IMG/VR virus record: IMGVR_UViG_3300029953_000619
Span: 1-51,637 of that record
Source of the DNA: a virus
DNA length: 51,637 nt
Reading direction: 5' to 3' (one strand)
Each line of letters opens with the position of its first letter. Position 1 is the first letter of the stretch. The position numbers and the translations under genes are program-made. This document shows positions 3,700 through 41,966 of this stretch, in pieces. The notes under the pieces were generated by a model. The model searched no databases. It saw only the letters and a program-made list of their open reading frames with translations, and was not told the origin of the DNA.

Positions 3700-5154
3700 T
3701 TATGAATTTATGACGGTCACAGAGCAAACAGTTGCCGCCGTTGGCCCGTTGCTGGTCGATGTTTCCAGATACATGCTGGTATAGGTGTTTGTGGCAGGTA
3801 TGTACCCCGGCAAATAATATTCGGTTACTTGACCGCCAACATAAAAAGTCGGGTCGTATCCGGTGTTTGTGGTGTTGACCAAATAAATCTTGCCCGACGA
3901 AATTGAAAGATTGATATAAAATCCGCTATAATTTGAAACCGTGACGAGATTTGCCCCCAAGGTCACGCCATATTCATTTGACGCGACAGATGTTCCCAGC
4001 GGACCAACGGCTTTGACGGTGTAATAATAAGTGTTCCCCGCCGCCGCTGTTGCGTCTTGATAGGAGCTTCCAGTGATTCCCGTTGCGATTGGGGTTCCCG
4101 ACTCTCCGCCGCTGGAGGTTCCCCGATAAACATTGTAAGAAGTGGCTCCCGATGATCCGGCCCAATTCACGGACACATATCCAGTTGTGAAACTGGGTGA
4201 AGATTGAACCGGTGCGGCCGGTGGGACAGAGGAAGGAGTGGCGCTGACTTCACTGGAAAAGGCACTGTAACCGACGGAATTGTGCGCTTTAACAACGTAA
4301 AAATATTTCGTTCCGTTGGATAGCCCCGTGTCTTGGTAGCTGCCCGCGCTTAATGCCGAGGCTATGGGTGTGCCTGACTCGCCGCCAGACGTGGTGCCCC
4401 TATAAACGTAGTAGGTCAATCCGGCAACCTGATTCCATGAAATGGTAATTGTCGTGTTTCCGGCCAATGCCGAAACGCCGGTCGGGGCGTTTGGCACGGA
4501 AAGCGTTGGGGTTGCGCTGACCTGCGTTGAATTGCTTCCCGTTCCTGATGCTGAATTTGCCGAGACGACGTAGTAATAAGCCGTGCCATTGATGGCGGTT
4601 GTGTCCAGAAACGAGTTTGTCCCCGATGCAAAATCAGTCCCGTAAGGACCGCCAGATGCGGTGCCCCGCGAAATGTTGTAGGACGTTGCGTTTGCAACCG
4701 CAGTCCAATTCAGTTGGACCTGACCATTGCCGGCGGTGGCCACCACATTTTGAGGCGTGCCAGGCAACCCGGCATCGGAGGCTAATCCATTTACCTGCGT
4801 CACAACCGCATTGCCAAAAGCATCCGGCACGATCTGAAAAAGGTTTCCACCGATTGCAACCACAATGCTTCCAACCCCGTTGTCTGGAGTGTAATAGCAA
4901 GCGCCTTGAAAAAGTCCGGTTTGAAAATTGGACTGAGCAACCGCCGCTGTTAAAAATGTTGGACAAACCGGGGATGCGGCGAACGTCAAATTGATGGCCC
5001 GCATGGCAGGCCGGGTTTTAACGAAATCCCCCCGGTTGGTGAGATTAAAAGCGTAGCCCATCTGGGACGGCTTGAGTTTCAAGGGGTCTATCCCCGAGTT
5101 CATTCCCAAGTCGAAGCTGCCAAGCGTGTCAAAAATTGGCTTTTTCTCGCTCAT
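3700..5154 (-). CDS. Propeller N-terminal segment fused to three fibronectin type III domains
   Basis: 484 residues. The first 110 or so (DLGMNSGIDPLKLKPSQMG, then FVKTRPAMRAINLTF) match the usual opening of phage beta-propeller tail proteins. Residues about 130-400 are three fibronectin type III domains, each with a QLNW/ISWNQ/VSVNWAG strand and a YNISRGT/YYVYRGT/YNVYRGT strand; domains two and three share TSGGESGTPIA. The last 85 residues form an unrecognised domain. The gene starts with an ATGA overlap to 5151-5441 and ends one base before the next gene, so it is probably coupled to it. It looks as if the propeller gene was split where the FN3 block was inserted. FN3 domains on virions often bind surface glycans. 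Confidence 0.8.
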   Translation of the reverse strand: MSEKKPIFDTLGSFDLGMNSGIDPLKLKPSQMGYAFNLTNRGDFVKTRPAMRAINLTFAASPVCPTFLTAAVAQSNFQTGLFQGACYYTPDNGVGSIVVAIGGNLFQIVPDAFGNAVVTQVNGLASDAGLPGTPQNVVATAGNGQVQLNWTAVANATSYNISRGTASGGPYGTDFASGTNSFLDTTAINGTAYYYVVSANSASGTGSNSTQVSATPTLSVPNAPTGVSALAGNTTITISWNQVAGLTYYVYRGTTSGGESGTPIASALSAGSYQDTGLSNGTKYFYVVKAHNSVGYSAFSSEVSATPSSVPPAAPVQSSPSFTTGYVSVNWAGSSGATSYNVYRGTSSGGESGTPIATGITGSSYQDATAAAGNTYYYTVKAVGPLGTSVASNEYGVTLGANLVTVSNYSGFYINLSISSGKIYLVNTTNTGYDPTFYVGGQVTEYYLPGYIPATNTYTSMYLETSTSNGPTAATVCSVTVINS

Positions 5155-5441
5155 CCGTAGATAAAATATTGAAACGAACTGGTTTCCGTGTTGGACGTGG
5201 AATTTACCGTAAGCGTGCCCGCGCCGACATTTTGGGTGACGTACAGCGTTCCGACGGTGCCGGTTGCGGAGGTGCGCTGGACGACAATAAATGACGCGCT
5301 GGTAAGCACGGCGGAAATGACCGACGCCCCGGCAACCAGTGTTCCGGTGCCAGTTTGAGGGGCGGGTGCCGCCGCGCCTTGTGGTCCGGGGATGTTGACC
5401 GGAGCCGGATTAACCGAACAACCGCAAGTGTCGTTTAGCAT
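5151..5441 (-). CDS. Small Ala/Thr-rich virion-type protein
   Basis: 96 residues. It starts with a Cys-containing DTCGCS segment, then a Pro/Gly/Ala stretch including GPQG, then a Ser/Thr/Val-rich beta-type domain ending in FQYFIYG. It overlaps the downstream FN3/propeller gene by ATGA and opens the tail operon. I do not recognise the family; the position suggests a small tail accessory protein. Its start codon lies inside a TTTAGCATA motif that recurs 44 bases upstream (5479-5487), which may be an operator. Confidence 0.65.
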   Translation of the reverse strand: MLNDTCGCSVNPAPVNIPGPQGAAAPAPQTGTGTLVAGASVISAVLTSASFIVVQRTSATGTVGTLYVTQNVGAGTLTVNSTSNTETSSFQYFIYG

Positions 5442-5481: not shown

Positions 5482-5509
5482 AGCATAAGGCTAAAAATCG
5501 CAATGTCAA
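5482..5509 (-). promoter_or_regulatory. Candidate promoter for the 5441 tail operon, with 17-bp dyad
   Basis: On the minus strand, -35 TTGACA (5509-5504), a 16-base spacer, then -10 TATGCT (5487-5482). Bases 5479-5495 form an inverted repeat, TTTAGC-ATAAG-GCTAAA, overlapping the -10. The -35 overlaps the first codons of terminase on the other strand, so the same 61-bp gap serves two divergent genes. No good promoter for terminase itself is visible. Confidence 0.45.
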
Positions 5510-9338: not shown

Positions 9339-9366
9339 AATATAGGTGAATTGCGTTGAATGTCAA
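9339..9366 (-). promoter_or_regulatory. Sigma70-like promoter giving a probably leaderless mRNA
   Basis: Minus strand: -35 TTGACA (9366-9361), 16-base spacer, -10 TATATT (9344-9339), then 6 bases to the ATG at 9332. Only the -35 overlaps the end of the ATP-grasp gene. It would drive the 9332-to-7281 unit separately from the portal operon. Confidence 0.65.
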
Positions 9367-22087: not shown

Positions 22088-22115
22088 TTGACATCTCACT
22101 AATCCGTGGTACTAT
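22088..22115 (+). promoter_or_regulatory. Promoter of the XRE regulator
   Basis: -35 TTGACA (22088-22093), 16-base spacer, -10 TACTAT (22110-22115), then 7 bases to the ATG at 22123. The mRNA would be leaderless or nearly so. Confidence 0.6.
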
Positions 22116-22122
22116 TTTGAAA

Positions 22123-22308
22123 ATGAAAACATTCCAAGACAAAATCACCCAAGCGCGTGCGCGTGCGGGGCTGAACCAAGAGCAGACAGCCGCACTGTTG
22201 GACGTGTCCCAGCAAGCCGTGTCAAAGTGGTGTGCGGGCGTCTGTGAGCCGTCAAAGTTGATGCAAAACGCGGTTCTCGAAAAACTCAAAGCGAAAGGAA
22301 CAAAATGA
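22123..22308 (+). CDS. XRE-family helix-turn-helix regulator
   Basis: 61 residues. The helix-turn-helix region is MKTFQDKITQARARAGLNQE, then QTAALLDVSQQAVSKWCAG, a typical XRE domain of Cro/CI type with no separate oligomerisation domain. It has its own promoter, so it may be expressed apart from the early operon. It is a good candidate to bind the TTACTA operators at 19906 and 20057, but no binding data exist. An in-frame TTG at 22117 is an alternative start. Confidence 0.85.
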   Translation: MKTFQDKITQARARAGLNQEQTAALLDVSQQAVSKWCAGVCEPSKLMQNAVLEKLKAKGTK

Positions 22309-34159: not shown

Positions 34160-34660
34160 TCACCACCCCACCGGCAACAGCCGGGGCGAGTGACCAAGCT
34201 CAGCCGGTGAAACCTTGGAATCCTCACACCGGATTAGCGGCAGCAACGCCGGGGCGACCTTGCGAATCGCCTGCATGTCCGCTTCTGAGCAAAACACGTT
34301 CTGCTCATCGGTCGCGGGCAGATCCAGGGCGTACTCAAACAGCCCGGCGATGCTGTACCCCTGAACCGACGGCCCGCTCGTGGTGATGTCGAAATATCGC
34401 TCAAACTGGGCGGCAATGTCTGGCGTCATGCCCTCTAAGGTGAAAAGGTCGATTCCCGGCACCTCGGCCGGGTTTAAGGCGCGGCAACGCATCTTCGGGT
34501 AATAACACTCCCAAATAGTCTTGCCGTCGCTCCTGAGCCAGCCTGCGTGCGTCCATTGGCCACGGGTGATAAATTGGATGGGTTGACCCAGTATGTCCCC
34601 TGGGTGGACGCGCCAGAGGGCGATTAGCGGCTGAGGGAATGGGAGGGTTGCGAGGTTCAT
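34160..34660 (-). CDS. Papain-like (NlpC/P60-YiiX type) peptidase, possible lysin
   Basis: 166 residues. FITRGQWTHAGW supplies a His and NVFCSEADM supplies a Cys, an order typical of circularly permuted NlpC/P60 or YiiX-like peptidases. A papain-like enzyme here, at the end of the lysis-type cluster, could cut peptidoglycan peptides. Note the His precedes the Cys. Confidence 0.7.
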   Translation of the reverse strand: MNLATLPFPQPLIALWRVHPGDILGQPIQFITRGQWTHAGWLRSDGKTIWECYYPKMRCRALNPAEVPGIDLFTLEGMTPDIAAQFERYFDITTSGPSVQGYSIAGLFEYALDLPATDEQNVFCSEADMQAIRKVAPALLPLIRCEDSKVSPAELGHSPRLLPVGW

Positions 34661-35121: not shown

Positions 35122-35613
35122 TTAGTGAGTTGCGCCCGTGGCTGGAATGACCGCCGTGCTCGTGATGGCCGAATTTGTTCCACTGCCCTGATTCACGTAA
35201 GCATTCCCGGACGCAAACTGGCCATTCAAGCCGAACCAGAAGGGCACAGCCTTGTTTTGCAATCCCCCGGCCTCAGAGATGTTCGGCGCATAAATGGCGT
35301 TGGTCGAAGTTGGTATCAGCCGGAAAGTGGAGTGGTTCAGCCCGAGCTTCACATTCGGGAAGGTCGAGGAATAACTGGAAAGCGTGGCGGCGAATCCGTA
35401 AACGTCTTCCTCGCCCAAAAGAGCATAACCGTCGGGCAGGAAAAGCCGCGCCTTCGTGACTGTGGTAACGGTCTTGGCGGGCGTGATGACATTGGTCGAG
35501 CCGGTGAGGGCATAGACGGCGGGCGTATTAACGGTGATGGTTTCGCGGGTATAGCAGCCGGTGATGGACACGACCAGCGAGACGGCGAACAGGGAGGATA
35601 GGAGTTTTTTCAT
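35122..35613 (-). CDS. Secreted lipoprotein
   Basis: 163 residues from ATG 35613 (MKKLLSSLFAVSLVVSITGC). The signal peptide ends in a lipobox (SITGC). The remainder is Ser/Thr/Asn-rich, with FRLIPTSTNAIYAPN and KAVPFWFGLNGQFA near the middle. It sits beside the lysis cluster, so a spanin-like or envelope role is possible. An upstream in-frame ATG exists. Confidence 0.75.
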   Translation of the reverse strand: MKKLLSSLFAVSLVVSITGCYTRETITVNTPAVYALTGSTNVITPAKTVTTVTKARLFLPDGYALLGEEDVYGFAATLSSYSSTFPNVKLGLNHSTFRLIPTSTNAIYAPNISEAGGLQNKAVPFWFGLNGQFASGNAYVNQGSGTNSAITSTAVIPATGATH

Positions 35614-35699
35614 GTTAAATTTTTGAGAATCGGATTGATTAGCCATTAATATGAACACATCGCATTTACAACGCTGGCGTCACACACATCAACCCTATT

Positions 35700-35917
35700 G
35701 ACATTCTCAATTGCCATTGGAAAGGGCATTGTTTATGCGAAATTGGCGGCGCGAGCAATAGTCAGCTTGCAACTTCGGCTGGGTAAGCCGACATGTTTTC
35801 CATATTCCAGCTTTCGCCGGTCAGTGAACCCTTACACCATCACGCCATTCTGTTAAATCACTGTGGGCGAGCGGCACTTTCACAGCCCTTTCGCTGCTGC
35901 CGCCTGCCCCTGCGGTT
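35700..35917 (-). ncRNA. Candidate structured RNA C
   Basis: Downstream of the promoter at 35951-35924 on the minus strand, four hairpins occur. TGCCGC/GCGGCA encloses CAGC/GCTG (35871-35903). CAGTGA pairs with TCACTG (35822-35863). A CCGGC/GCTGG stem has a GAAA tetraloop (35807-35820), and AGCCG pairs with CGGCT (35776-35790). No believable protein frame covers them; a 78-residue ORF here is weak. The 3' end is unknown. Confidence 0.5.
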
Positions 35918-35923
35918 AAACTG

Positions 35924-35951
35924 ACCCTAACACAATTCCGACGACTGTCAA
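35924..35951 (-). promoter_or_regulatory. Promoter C: TTGACA-N16-TAGGGT
   Basis: Minus strand: -35 TTGACA (35951-35946), 16-base spacer, -10 TAGGGT (35929-35924). The upstream 15-mer TAATTTTATTTGACA is identical to the one at promoter B. The spacers differ. Confidence 0.55.
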
Positions 35952-35969
35952 ATAAAATTAGCGCGGAAA

Positions 35970-36054
35970 TATAAAAGACACCGGCCAACAGGCGATTGCA
36001 GTCCACGCAACCTGTTGGCCGGTAGGGACGCGGGGCTCTACAATTAACTCGCGA
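35970..36054 (-). ncRNA. Candidate small RNA B, about 85 nt, with own terminator
   Basis: Begins about 7 bases after the promoter B -10 box. Near its 3' end, ACCGGCCAACAGG (36023-36011) pairs with CCTGTTGGCCGGT (35992-35980) over 13 perfect base pairs, and TTGC/GCAA extends it inside the 18-base loop. GTCTTTTATATTT follows. Promoter, compact body and intrinsic terminator make a complete small-RNA gene. No protein frame. Confidence 0.6.
35980..36023 (-). terminator. Terminator of small RNA B
   Basis: 13-bp perfect stem, then T-rich GTCTTTTATATTT on the minus strand. Confidence 0.65.
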
Positions 36055-36060
36055 CAATTG

Positions 36061-36088
36061 ACCCTAATGCAAAGCGGCGAATTGTCAA
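36061..36088 (-). promoter_or_regulatory. Promoter B: TTGACA-N16-TAGGGT
   Basis: Minus strand: -35 TTGACA (36088-36083), 16-base spacer, -10 TAGGGT (36066-36061). The upstream TAATTTTATTTGACA overlaps the stop of the 54-residue gene. Confidence 0.6.
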
Positions 36089-36094
36089 ATAAAA

Positions 36095-36259
36095 TTAAAC
36101 CGTCACGCGGTCGTGGAAACGGAAAGCCTCGTCCTCGGTGAGCTTGTTCCGCTTCATGCGGGCATAGATCGTGTGGTACTTCACACCCTTGGCCGCGCAC
36201 TTGGCGCGTAAGCCTGCGGGGTCTGCCTTGCGGCCTGATTTGCCTTTTTTGCCTGACAT
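36095..36259 (-). CDS. 54-residue basic protein within the RNA cluster
   Basis: Starts MSGKKGKSGRKADPAGLRAK and includes CAAKGVKYHTIYARMKRNKL, a helix-turn-helix-like pattern, ending TEDEAFRFHDRVTV. It is read from a structured leader (36260-36490) behind promoter A. It could be a small DNA- or RNA-binding protein. The coding frame is clear, with a basic composition unlike the flanking DNA. Confidence 0.65.
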   Translation of the reverse strand: MSGKKGKSGRKADPAGLRAKCAAKGVKYHTIYARMKRNKLTEDEAFRFHDRVTV

Positions 36260-36490
36260 AGTTTGAAATTGGCTGGGAGATAGCGATTTGCGCGCCGGAC
36301 TTATTACGGTCGTCAGCTTACATGCCCTATGACCGCTCTATAAGTGTCGGTTGCGACCCGACCGTGGGCCTAACCCACGCTCACTCCCAATAAATCGATT
36401 AACCAAGCCATGGCCCGCCGCCAAAAGTTATGCTCTGCGGGTCGTTGCAAGCCGTCTGGACTAGGAGCACCGCCCAAACGGAACTTGGTA
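36260..36490 (-). ncRNA. Structured leader / candidate RNA A
   Basis: Follows promoter A. ACCAAG (36489-36484) can pair with CTTGGT near 36400, closing a folded domain with TGCTC/GAGCA inside. Three further hairpins follow: GTGGG-TTAGG-CCCAC (36364-36378), GTCGG/CCGAC with a 7-base loop (36346-36362) and CGGTC/GACCG (36307-36335). It is either a long 5' UTR of the 54-residue gene or an independent RNA. A plus-strand ORF here (36410-36616) is not convincing. Confidence 0.5.
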
Positions 36491-36496
36491 TGCCAA

Positions 36497-36524
36497 ACCC
36501 TACCATGCTCCCGCGAGTTGTCAA
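36497..36524 (-). promoter_or_regulatory. Promoter A: TTGACA-N16-TAGGGT
   Basis: Minus strand: -35 TTGACA (36524-36519), 16-base spacer, -10 TAGGGT (36502-36497). Same two boxes and spacing as promoters B and C. Confidence 0.55.
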
Positions 36525-36558: not shown

Positions 36559-36918
36559 TCACTTCGGCGGAGCCGTGCCAGCCGCCGAGGTCTGCGATTC
36601 AGGAACGACGGCTTGAAGCGTATCCTTCACCACTGGCTGACTGGGAAGGGACGCACCGGCAACGTGCGCCACAAGGCGAGCCAGACCACTAGACCCCTCC
36701 GCCGTCGAATTTTTCAGGGCGAAATTACGAATGTACTGGGCAATCGCCTTGACCGTGAGCGCCGCAACGAGCAGGGATGCCCCGTCGATTTTGATGCCAA
36801 AATCACTCAGCAGCTTGCCAAGGTCTTGAGCAGTCGAATCCGGCACGGGGACGGCATTGGTTTGTGCCGCGCATGAAAGCGCGGTCATGGCGATAAGGGC
36901 GATGGTTATTTTTTTCAT
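36559..36918 (-). CDS. Small exported or membrane protein
   Basis: 119 residues (MKKITIALIAMTALSCAAQT): signal peptide or possible lipobox, then a second hydrophobic segment (GASLLVAALTVKAIAQYI). It overlaps the upstream gene as ATGA. Two hydrophobic segments and the place in the lysis cluster suggest a holin- or spanin-like role, not proven. Confidence 0.65.
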   Translation of the reverse strand: MKKITIALIAMTALSCAAQTNAVPVPDSTAQDLGKLLSDFGIKIDGASLLVAALTVKAIAQYIRNFALKNSTAEGSSGLARLVAHVAGASLPSQPVVKDTLQAVVPESQTSAAGTAPPK

Positions 36919-40223: not shown

Positions 40224-41966
40224 TCAGGTGGTCGCGCCCCACGGGATCTCCACGTCGTAGCAGGTGCCCGTAAGCGTGATTTGCGTCCCGTTGGCGGCAG
40301 CAGCCCAAGTGCCCAGCACGGCGACCTGAGCGTTCAACGCCGCAACCAGGAGCGGGATGGTGTTGACGATGCCCTGCACGGGGTCGTTGTTGACGTAACC
40401 AATCTGCTCATGATCGGTCGGGTCGTCGTTGCAGGTGATCGAGTTGGCCGGGATGTAATACCCGCCGTTGAACGGAGAATATCCATTCGTGACCGCCACG
40501 GGGGTAAACGTGAGTGTGTTCGTAACCGGACCCGCGCAAGTCGGGGGCAGGGAACTGTAATTCTGCACGGGATACGGATAGTTGGAATCCGGCACGCCGG
40601 CCGTGATTTCCGCCACAATCGCCGCCGTGGCCTTGTGCATGATGAGTTCGGAAAACTCGACGTATTTCGGCATGTAGGCCATTTTGAAATCCGCGATGAA
40701 CTGGCCTTTGTTCCGGCGTTTGTTCTCAATGACGTTGCCATTGGAATCCGCGCCGAGGTTGTCCATTACGAACTGCCATTTGCCGCCGAAATTGCGGGAG
40801 CTATACGGCATTTCCGGGTTGACCGGGGTGGCGTCCGCCATCAAGCACGCACCCGCCGCACGGTGCCAAATGACCGTCCAGCGGTACTGAGCCGCCGGGT
40901 AGGCCGGGTTCACGTCGTCTTTGGTTCCCGCCGCGCTGCCAGCGCCGGAAGACGTTTCATTGATGTACGGCAACACGAGGTTGTAGCGGTAGGAGGTCGT
41001 GCCCCAAGGGAACGATCCGCCCACGGTGCCGACGTAATTGAACCGGAGTGAGAACGGGTCAACGCGCACGGCGTAATTGCCGAGCTTGCCGGTGAAGTTG
41101 TACTTCCAGTATTTGGAAGTGGCATCCCAGCTTTCAAAACGCCAGTTGCCGGAAACTGAGGGGTTGTCGCCGGGACCGACGCCAACCTGACCGCCGAGGT
41201 GTTCCAAATCCCACAGGGTTTCAAGGTCAGTCACCAACTCGATGAGCGGGGGCATGTCCTTGAACGGCTGTTTGCCGAAATAGCCGATTTGCATGAGGGG
41301 TTGAACCCGGCGTTGCAACATCTGCGGGGTGAGCCGGTAAATGGCACTCGGATTGACGTTGGTATCAATGTAGGCTTCCGACAGGGTGCCGCCGTTTTCG
41401 ACGGTTTGCAGCCATTGATATTGGAAGGTGCCCGCGCCAGTCGCACCGCTGGAAGTGGTGCCGGACGAGGAAAAGCCGAAGAACTGGTTGGCAACCCACT
41501 TGTTTTTGCAGTTTTGCGCCACGCGCTTCCGCAAAAAGTTGGAATTAATTGCCGAGGTCGCCGGTTTCAGAATGTCGGAAATGATTTGCCGAAATTGCTG
41601 CTTGGCATGGGTGACGTGCATCTCCTGATCGAAGCACAGAAGCGGGGTCGCCCAGTATTGCTGTTCGAGGAAGTACACCGTCCGGGTGCTGCCCCAAGTG
41701 ATGTAGTTTTCCGTCTTGTCGCAAGGGGTGCCGAGACAGTTGCCAGCCTGAACGGGCGTCCAGACCTTGGTAACGTCAGGCCAGACGTGGTTGAAACGGT
41801 CGAGGGTGTGTTCGGTGCCGGAATAGGCTTCAAACGTCCCAGTTTCGACGTGGAGAATCCAGCCGTCCTCGGGCCGGATGTCCTCAAGGATGAGCTTGTC
41901 GAACACAGGTGTTTGATTCACCAACAGTTGGGTAAATTGCTTTGCGCTTAAAATTCCGCTTGCCAT
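40224..41966 (-). CDS. Major capsid protein (likely)
   Basis: 580 residues. The N-terminus (MASGILSAKQFTQLLVNQTP) and central segments (RAAGACLMADATPVNPEMPY and PKYVEFSELIMHKATAAIVA) fit a large capsid protein of short-tailed phages as I recall. It forms its own unit: long leader, own promoter and strong terminator, as expected for the most abundant protein. No diagnostic motif; the call rests on size, composition and this isolation. Confidence 0.7.
   Translation of the reverse strand: MASGILSAKQFTQLLVNQTPVFDKLILEDIRPEDGWILHVETGTFEAYSGTEHTLDRFNHVWPDVTKVWTPVQAGNCLGTPCDKTENYITWGSTRTVYFLEQQYWATPLLCFDQEMHVTHAKQQFRQIISDILKPATSAINSNFLRKRVAQNCKNKWVANQFFGFSSSGTTSSGATGAGTFQYQWLQTVENGGTLSEAYIDTNVNPSAIYRLTPQMLQRRVQPLMQIGYFGKQPFKDMPPLIELVTDLETLWDLEHLGGQVGVGPGDNPSVSGNWRFESWDATSKYWKYNFTGKLGNYAVRVDPFSLRFNYVGTVGGSFPWGTTSYRYNLVLPYINETSSGAGSAAGTKDDVNPAYPAAQYRWTVIWHRAAGACLMADATPVNPEMPYSSRNFGGKWQFVMDNLGADSNGNVIENKRRNKGQFIADFKMAYMPKYVEFSELIMHKATAAIVAEITAGVPDSNYPYPVQNYSSLPPTCAGPVTNTLTFTPVAVTNGYSPFNGGYYIPANSITCNDDPTDHEQIGYVNNDPVQGIVNTIPLLVAALNAQVAVLGTWAAAANGTQITLTGTCYDVEIPWGATT

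Follow-up and report, generated by a model that had tools for sequence, protein, structure and literature searches.

What would three copies of one promoter-like sequence be doing in a gene-poor stretch of a viral genome? The question is raised by a locus in an IMG/VR virus record, the whole analyzed stretch of which (51,637 nt) is referred to here as the window. A motif scan of the whole window for exact TTGACA-N16-TAGGGT found three copies, all on the minus strand and with identical spacing, at 36524-36497 (P1), 36088-36061 (P2) and 35951-35924 (P3), as described in the first-pass annotation. The expected number is 0.01, and none of 100 dinucleotide shuffles contained three copies. The unusual density of promoters claimed for the region is real by this measure, and the same type of promoter also occurs elsewhere in the window, at three more TTGACA-N16-TANNNT sites. 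When two mismatches were allowed, five matches were found in the window compared with 2.6 expected, and therefore only the exact form is significant. RNA synthesis is predicted to start near 36490, 36054 and 35917 for P1, P2 and P3, respectively.

Two of the copies, P2 and P3, sit inside a 42-nt direct repeat with 76% identity. They have in common the 15-mer TAATTTTATTTGACA, again in line with the earlier description, plus TTAGGGTCA. The AT-rich upstream block (TAATTTTAT at P2), the -35 box and the -10 box are identical between them, and the spacers are mostly different. Retention of boxes alongside a diverged spacer is as expected of boxes under selection.

The same architecture is used more widely in this phage. 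Perfect pairs of TTGACA and TANNNT with spacers of 15-18 bp number six in the window, against about 0.15-0.2 expected per spacing, and all six have a 16-bp spacer; none with a 15-, 17- or 18-bp spacer is present. Outside the cluster, TTGACA-N16-TACTAT (22088-22115, plus strand) lies directly 5' of the gene that heads the rightward set, an XRE/Cro-like regulator (22117/22124-22308), TTGACA-N16-TATATT (9339-9366, minus strand) is 6 nt 5' of the ATG of a 75-aa ORF, and TTGACA-N16-TATGCT (5482-5509, minus strand) is 40 nt 5' of the ATG of a 96-aa ORF. Since these sites have different TANNNT boxes, TAGGGT appears to be one -10 variant used by the phage. The promoters of the Cro-like regulator (22088-22308, plus strand) and the 75-aa protein (9366-9105, minus strand) end 6-8 nt before the ATG, and so their mRNAs are predicted to be leaderless. 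The 96-aa ORF (5151-5441, minus strand) has a Pfam match (PF24146, 1.1e-7) to the C-terminal domain of K1 capsule lyase, a tailspike-type domain found here in a small separate gene with its own promoter-like site.

The likely host provides a context in which to read these boxes. Rightward genes between 22 and 34 kb encode the Cro-like regulator (HTH_3), an Erf-like annealing protein, a YqaJ/RecE-like nuclease, HNH nucleases and a replication initiator. A tail protein is encoded by the leftward genes, as is a large conserved protein (40224-41966) that is matched by no family and is presumed, from its position and conservation, to be the capsid protein. No integrase was seen in the phage. A 166-aa protein downstream of the cluster (34160-34660, minus strand) has THAG and FCSE motifs and, in our reading, resembles a permuted NlpC/P60 cysteine peptidase, with no Pfam match. 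Relatives of the presumed capsid protein occur in 79 viral loci, and its sole relative among sequenced genomes (66%) is in a Pedosphaera sp. (Verrucomicrobiota) assembly, on a single 7.4-kb contig of a metagenome-assembled genome. Because of this relative, the host is likely to belong to the Pedosphaerales.

Exact TTGACA-N16-TAGGGT has three matches in eight genomes of the host family, and each is a short distance 5' of a gene start: two genomes have it at rpsT and one at ppdK (gene names are our reading of the translated starts). Across 293 genomes of the host order, TTGACA and TAGGGT are separated by N16 79 times, by N17 44 times and by N13 19 times. Among the loci listed, a promoter-like position, defined as lying in no long open frame and no more than 120 nt from a gene start, was found for 11 of 30 N16 sites, 15 of 30 N17 sites and 1 of 19 N13 sites. 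Many of the N16 matches in the order precede rpsT, ppdK, aspartokinase and similar genes by 24-60 bp, and the rpsT and ppdK sites recur across species with the -35 box, spacing and -10 box kept and the spacer varying. Twenty further host loci, mainly at rpsT and ppdK, were hand-picked, many for their similar spacers, and serve as an illustration rather than a sample. The reversed motif is found in the 293 genomes at about the same frequency as the motif itself; many single host matches would therefore be due to chance, and it is the tests of spacing and position that carry the argument. Counting promoters in parts of one host genome gave too small a set (140 upstream regions) to be informative. 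No mapped promoters for Pedosphaerales were found in the literature searched, a search that most subscription papers fell outside.

The spacing preference, along with the positions 5' of rpsT, ppdK and aspartokinase in the host order, is the reason why we consider the three sites very probably ordinary host promoters of the housekeeping sigma70/sigmaA type. They pair TTGACA with TANNNT within the 15-18 bp range, and the same boxes stand at conserved positions 5' of host housekeeping genes in a manner that depends on spacing. Like promoters of this type, the phage sites have a perfect -35 box, the TA...T frame of a -10 box and, at P2 and P3, an AT-rich block 5' of the boxes; furthermore, the boxes are the same as those before host rpsT and ppdK. 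They differ in having a spacer of 16 bp, where the textbook sigma70 spacer is 17 bp, and a -10 box whose central letters are GGG. The original reading, one promoter type present three times in a gene-poor stretch, is probably right.

The cluster is flanked by genes for a secreted or membrane protein of 119 aa (36559-36918) and for a lipoprotein (35122-35613), and each promoter precedes a different kind of element. P1 (predicted RNA start ~36490) is followed, 237 nt past its -10 box, by a 54-aa ORF, p54. The intervening leader (36260-36490, minus strand) holds short ORFs only, such as MAWLIDLLGVSVG at 36411, and its fold is not clearly above shuffles (z -0.4 to -1.4). A possible 13-codon leader peptide, MAWLIDLLGVSVG (36411-36370, minus strand), has its stop inside a small hairpin, GTGGGTTAGGCCCAC, in this leader. 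The 54-codon gene that had been placed in the cluster is present at 36259-36095 on the minus strand; its GC content by codon position (0.55/0.45/0.75) matches that of the presumed capsid gene (0.53/0.45/0.75). Structure prediction gives three helices (pLDDT 79), and DNA binding by p54 is a guess from its sequence. No protein family matched p54, and a fold search with its model gave no useful match.

P2 begins directly after the p54 stop codon. Its predicted product is a short RNA of about 75-85 nt (35970-36055, minus strand), with no good ORF, that would end in a hairpin and T-rich stretch. The hairpin has a 13-bp perfect stem, ACCGGCCAACAGG/CCTGTTGGCCGGT (35980-36023, minus strand), located about 30 nt downstream of P2, and GTCTTTTATATTT comes next on that strand. 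No other perfect stem in the window reaches 11 bp (with loops of up to 24 considered), and the segment 36056-35965 is predicted to fold much more stably than its shuffles (z -4.3). The T tract on its 3' side is imperfect, and the hairpin is likely to be an intrinsic terminator. P3 is followed by a leader of ~300 nt (35614-35917, minus strand) that is moderately structured (z -2.5, -2.1), the folding of segment 35920-35800 being moderate (z -2.5). The strongly folding segments reported between and after the promoters are therefore borne out at 36056-35965, to a moderate degree at 35920-35800, and not clearly in the P1 leader. The first ordinary gene 3' of P3 encodes a predicted lipoprotein of 163 aa (p163; 35122-35613, minus strand) with a signal peptide and an SITGC lipobox, for which no family match was found.

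Taken as a whole, these elements are probably explained by host-type promoters that serve a small insert in the late region, with a p54 mRNA, a short RNA and a lipoprotein mRNA as products. Such promoters would open the insert, which lies towards the end of the late region, to the unmodified host polymerase without dependence on late control. P1 would give the mRNA of p54, the predicted three-helix protein of 54 aa. The short RNA from P2 would terminate at the hairpin with the 13-bp stem, and the same hairpin would insulate P3, from which the lipoprotein mRNA would start. Three promoters in this arrangement are unusual, and plausible as part of a late-region insert.

Morons are extra phage genes with their own promoter and terminator. 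The cluster resembles such accessory loci in being a small extra unit near the late genes, with its own promoters predicted by sequence, a terminator-like hairpin with a T-rich tail and a lipoprotein product. Unlike them, it has three promoters in a row, and no lysogeny genes are shown. In a study of their expression in lysogens, accessory loci of this kind are described as often highly expressed while most phage genes are repressed (PMC7067206). The insert could in the same manner be expressed early or in lysogeny, with the lipoprotein, for example, acting at the cell surface; such a moron-like role has a little less than an even chance. Ltp (PMC3952083) is an example of a phage surface lipoprotein that excludes other phages. 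The 163-aa protein is similarly a small predicted lipoprotein with its own predicted promoter, and no sequence relation is established. A spanin-like function in lysis is as possible for it as phage exclusion.

Comparison with other viruses found no independent relative of the cluster. It is found in one other record only, 100% identical over 8.3 kb, and in none of the 79 loci with relatives of the presumed capsid protein except this identical record, which is also the only source of relatives of p54 and the 166-aa downstream protein. DNA similarity to annotated phages was not found. In related loci p119, p54 and p163 have no relative; the nearest relative, L005, carries other genes there, and its flanking genes differ too, so that no empty site is demonstrable. 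In the search of related phages for the motif, proposed at first pass, a single distant relative, L067, has it in non-coding DNA, and other exact matches are nearly all in coding DNA. A scan of all viral contigs for an extended motif found 19 stretches, all inside open frames except that in the identical record. Two looser viral scans found at least 149 distinct sites, with at least 16 outside long open frames, and L067 is the only non-frame site with a hairpin among the matches listed. On the minus strand of L067, at 6871-6790, its one TTGACA-N16-TAGGGT is followed by a hairpin, CCACCCAGC/GCTGGGTGG, at a distance similar to that at P2. The perfect stem of this hairpin is 9 bp long, the predicted fold has 12 pairs, and z is -4.5. 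A second promoter-like N16 site in L067, with TATAGT, is at 4397. Overall, the motif does not occur beyond chance in non-coding DNA of other phages.

These comparisons allow other explanations to be weighed. The cluster might be mainly a noncoding RNA locus, in which P2, and perhaps the P1 and P3 leaders, give rise to regulatory RNAs, with the proteins of lesser importance. The lack of a good ORF in the P2 RNA, its strong hairpin and the similar arrangement in L067 would fit this; against it, Rfam gave no convincing match, the hairpin is accounted for as a terminator, folding of the P1 leader is not clearly stronger than that of shuffles and the common architecture rests on two phages. We consider this unlikely. 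More doubtful still is a narrower proposal, that the small-RNA unit of the window and L067, taken as distantly related Verrucomicrobiota phages (a host-type TTGACA-N16-TAGGGT promoter, ~30 nt, then a strong hairpin; 75-85 nt), acts on the host as a regulatory or decoy RNA beside a small DNA-binding protein.

TAGGGT had been suggested to mark a phage-specific promoter class, which a phage-encoded or phage-modified polymerase would read, timing expression of the cluster. All three copies share this -10 box and the other N16 sites of the phage have other boxes. However, the same -35, spacing and -10 precede housekeeping genes in many Pedosphaerales, rpsT and ppdK among them, so that the motif is not confined to the phage, and the phage itself mixes TANNNT boxes. 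Furthermore, the phage proteins scanned, a set with part of the small ORFs, matched neither a sigma factor family nor one of RNA polymerases, and the absence of the motif beyond chance outside coding DNA in other phages also argues against a widespread phage class. The suggestion is not upheld, and a class of this kind is very improbable. That the boxes are chance occurrences or decayed repeats without activity, for which the lack of independent relatives of the cluster and the sequence-based promoter reading could be cited, is hardly credible given three exact matches against 0.01 expected, the boxes and spacing kept between P2 and P3 where spacers differ, and the same form in host promoters.

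Reading the sites as host-type promoters corrects a likely misreading, as TAGGGT here is no sign of a phage polymerase. Two phages, this one and L067, do not make a family, yet the short RNA merits a test. Pedosphaerales are abundant soil bacteria that have hardly been cultured, and the comparison offers a picture from sequence of their housekeeping promoter, TTGACA-N16/17-TANNNT, recurrent at rpsT and ppdK in many species. It also suggests that phages of the Pedosphaerales may use promoters of this host form.
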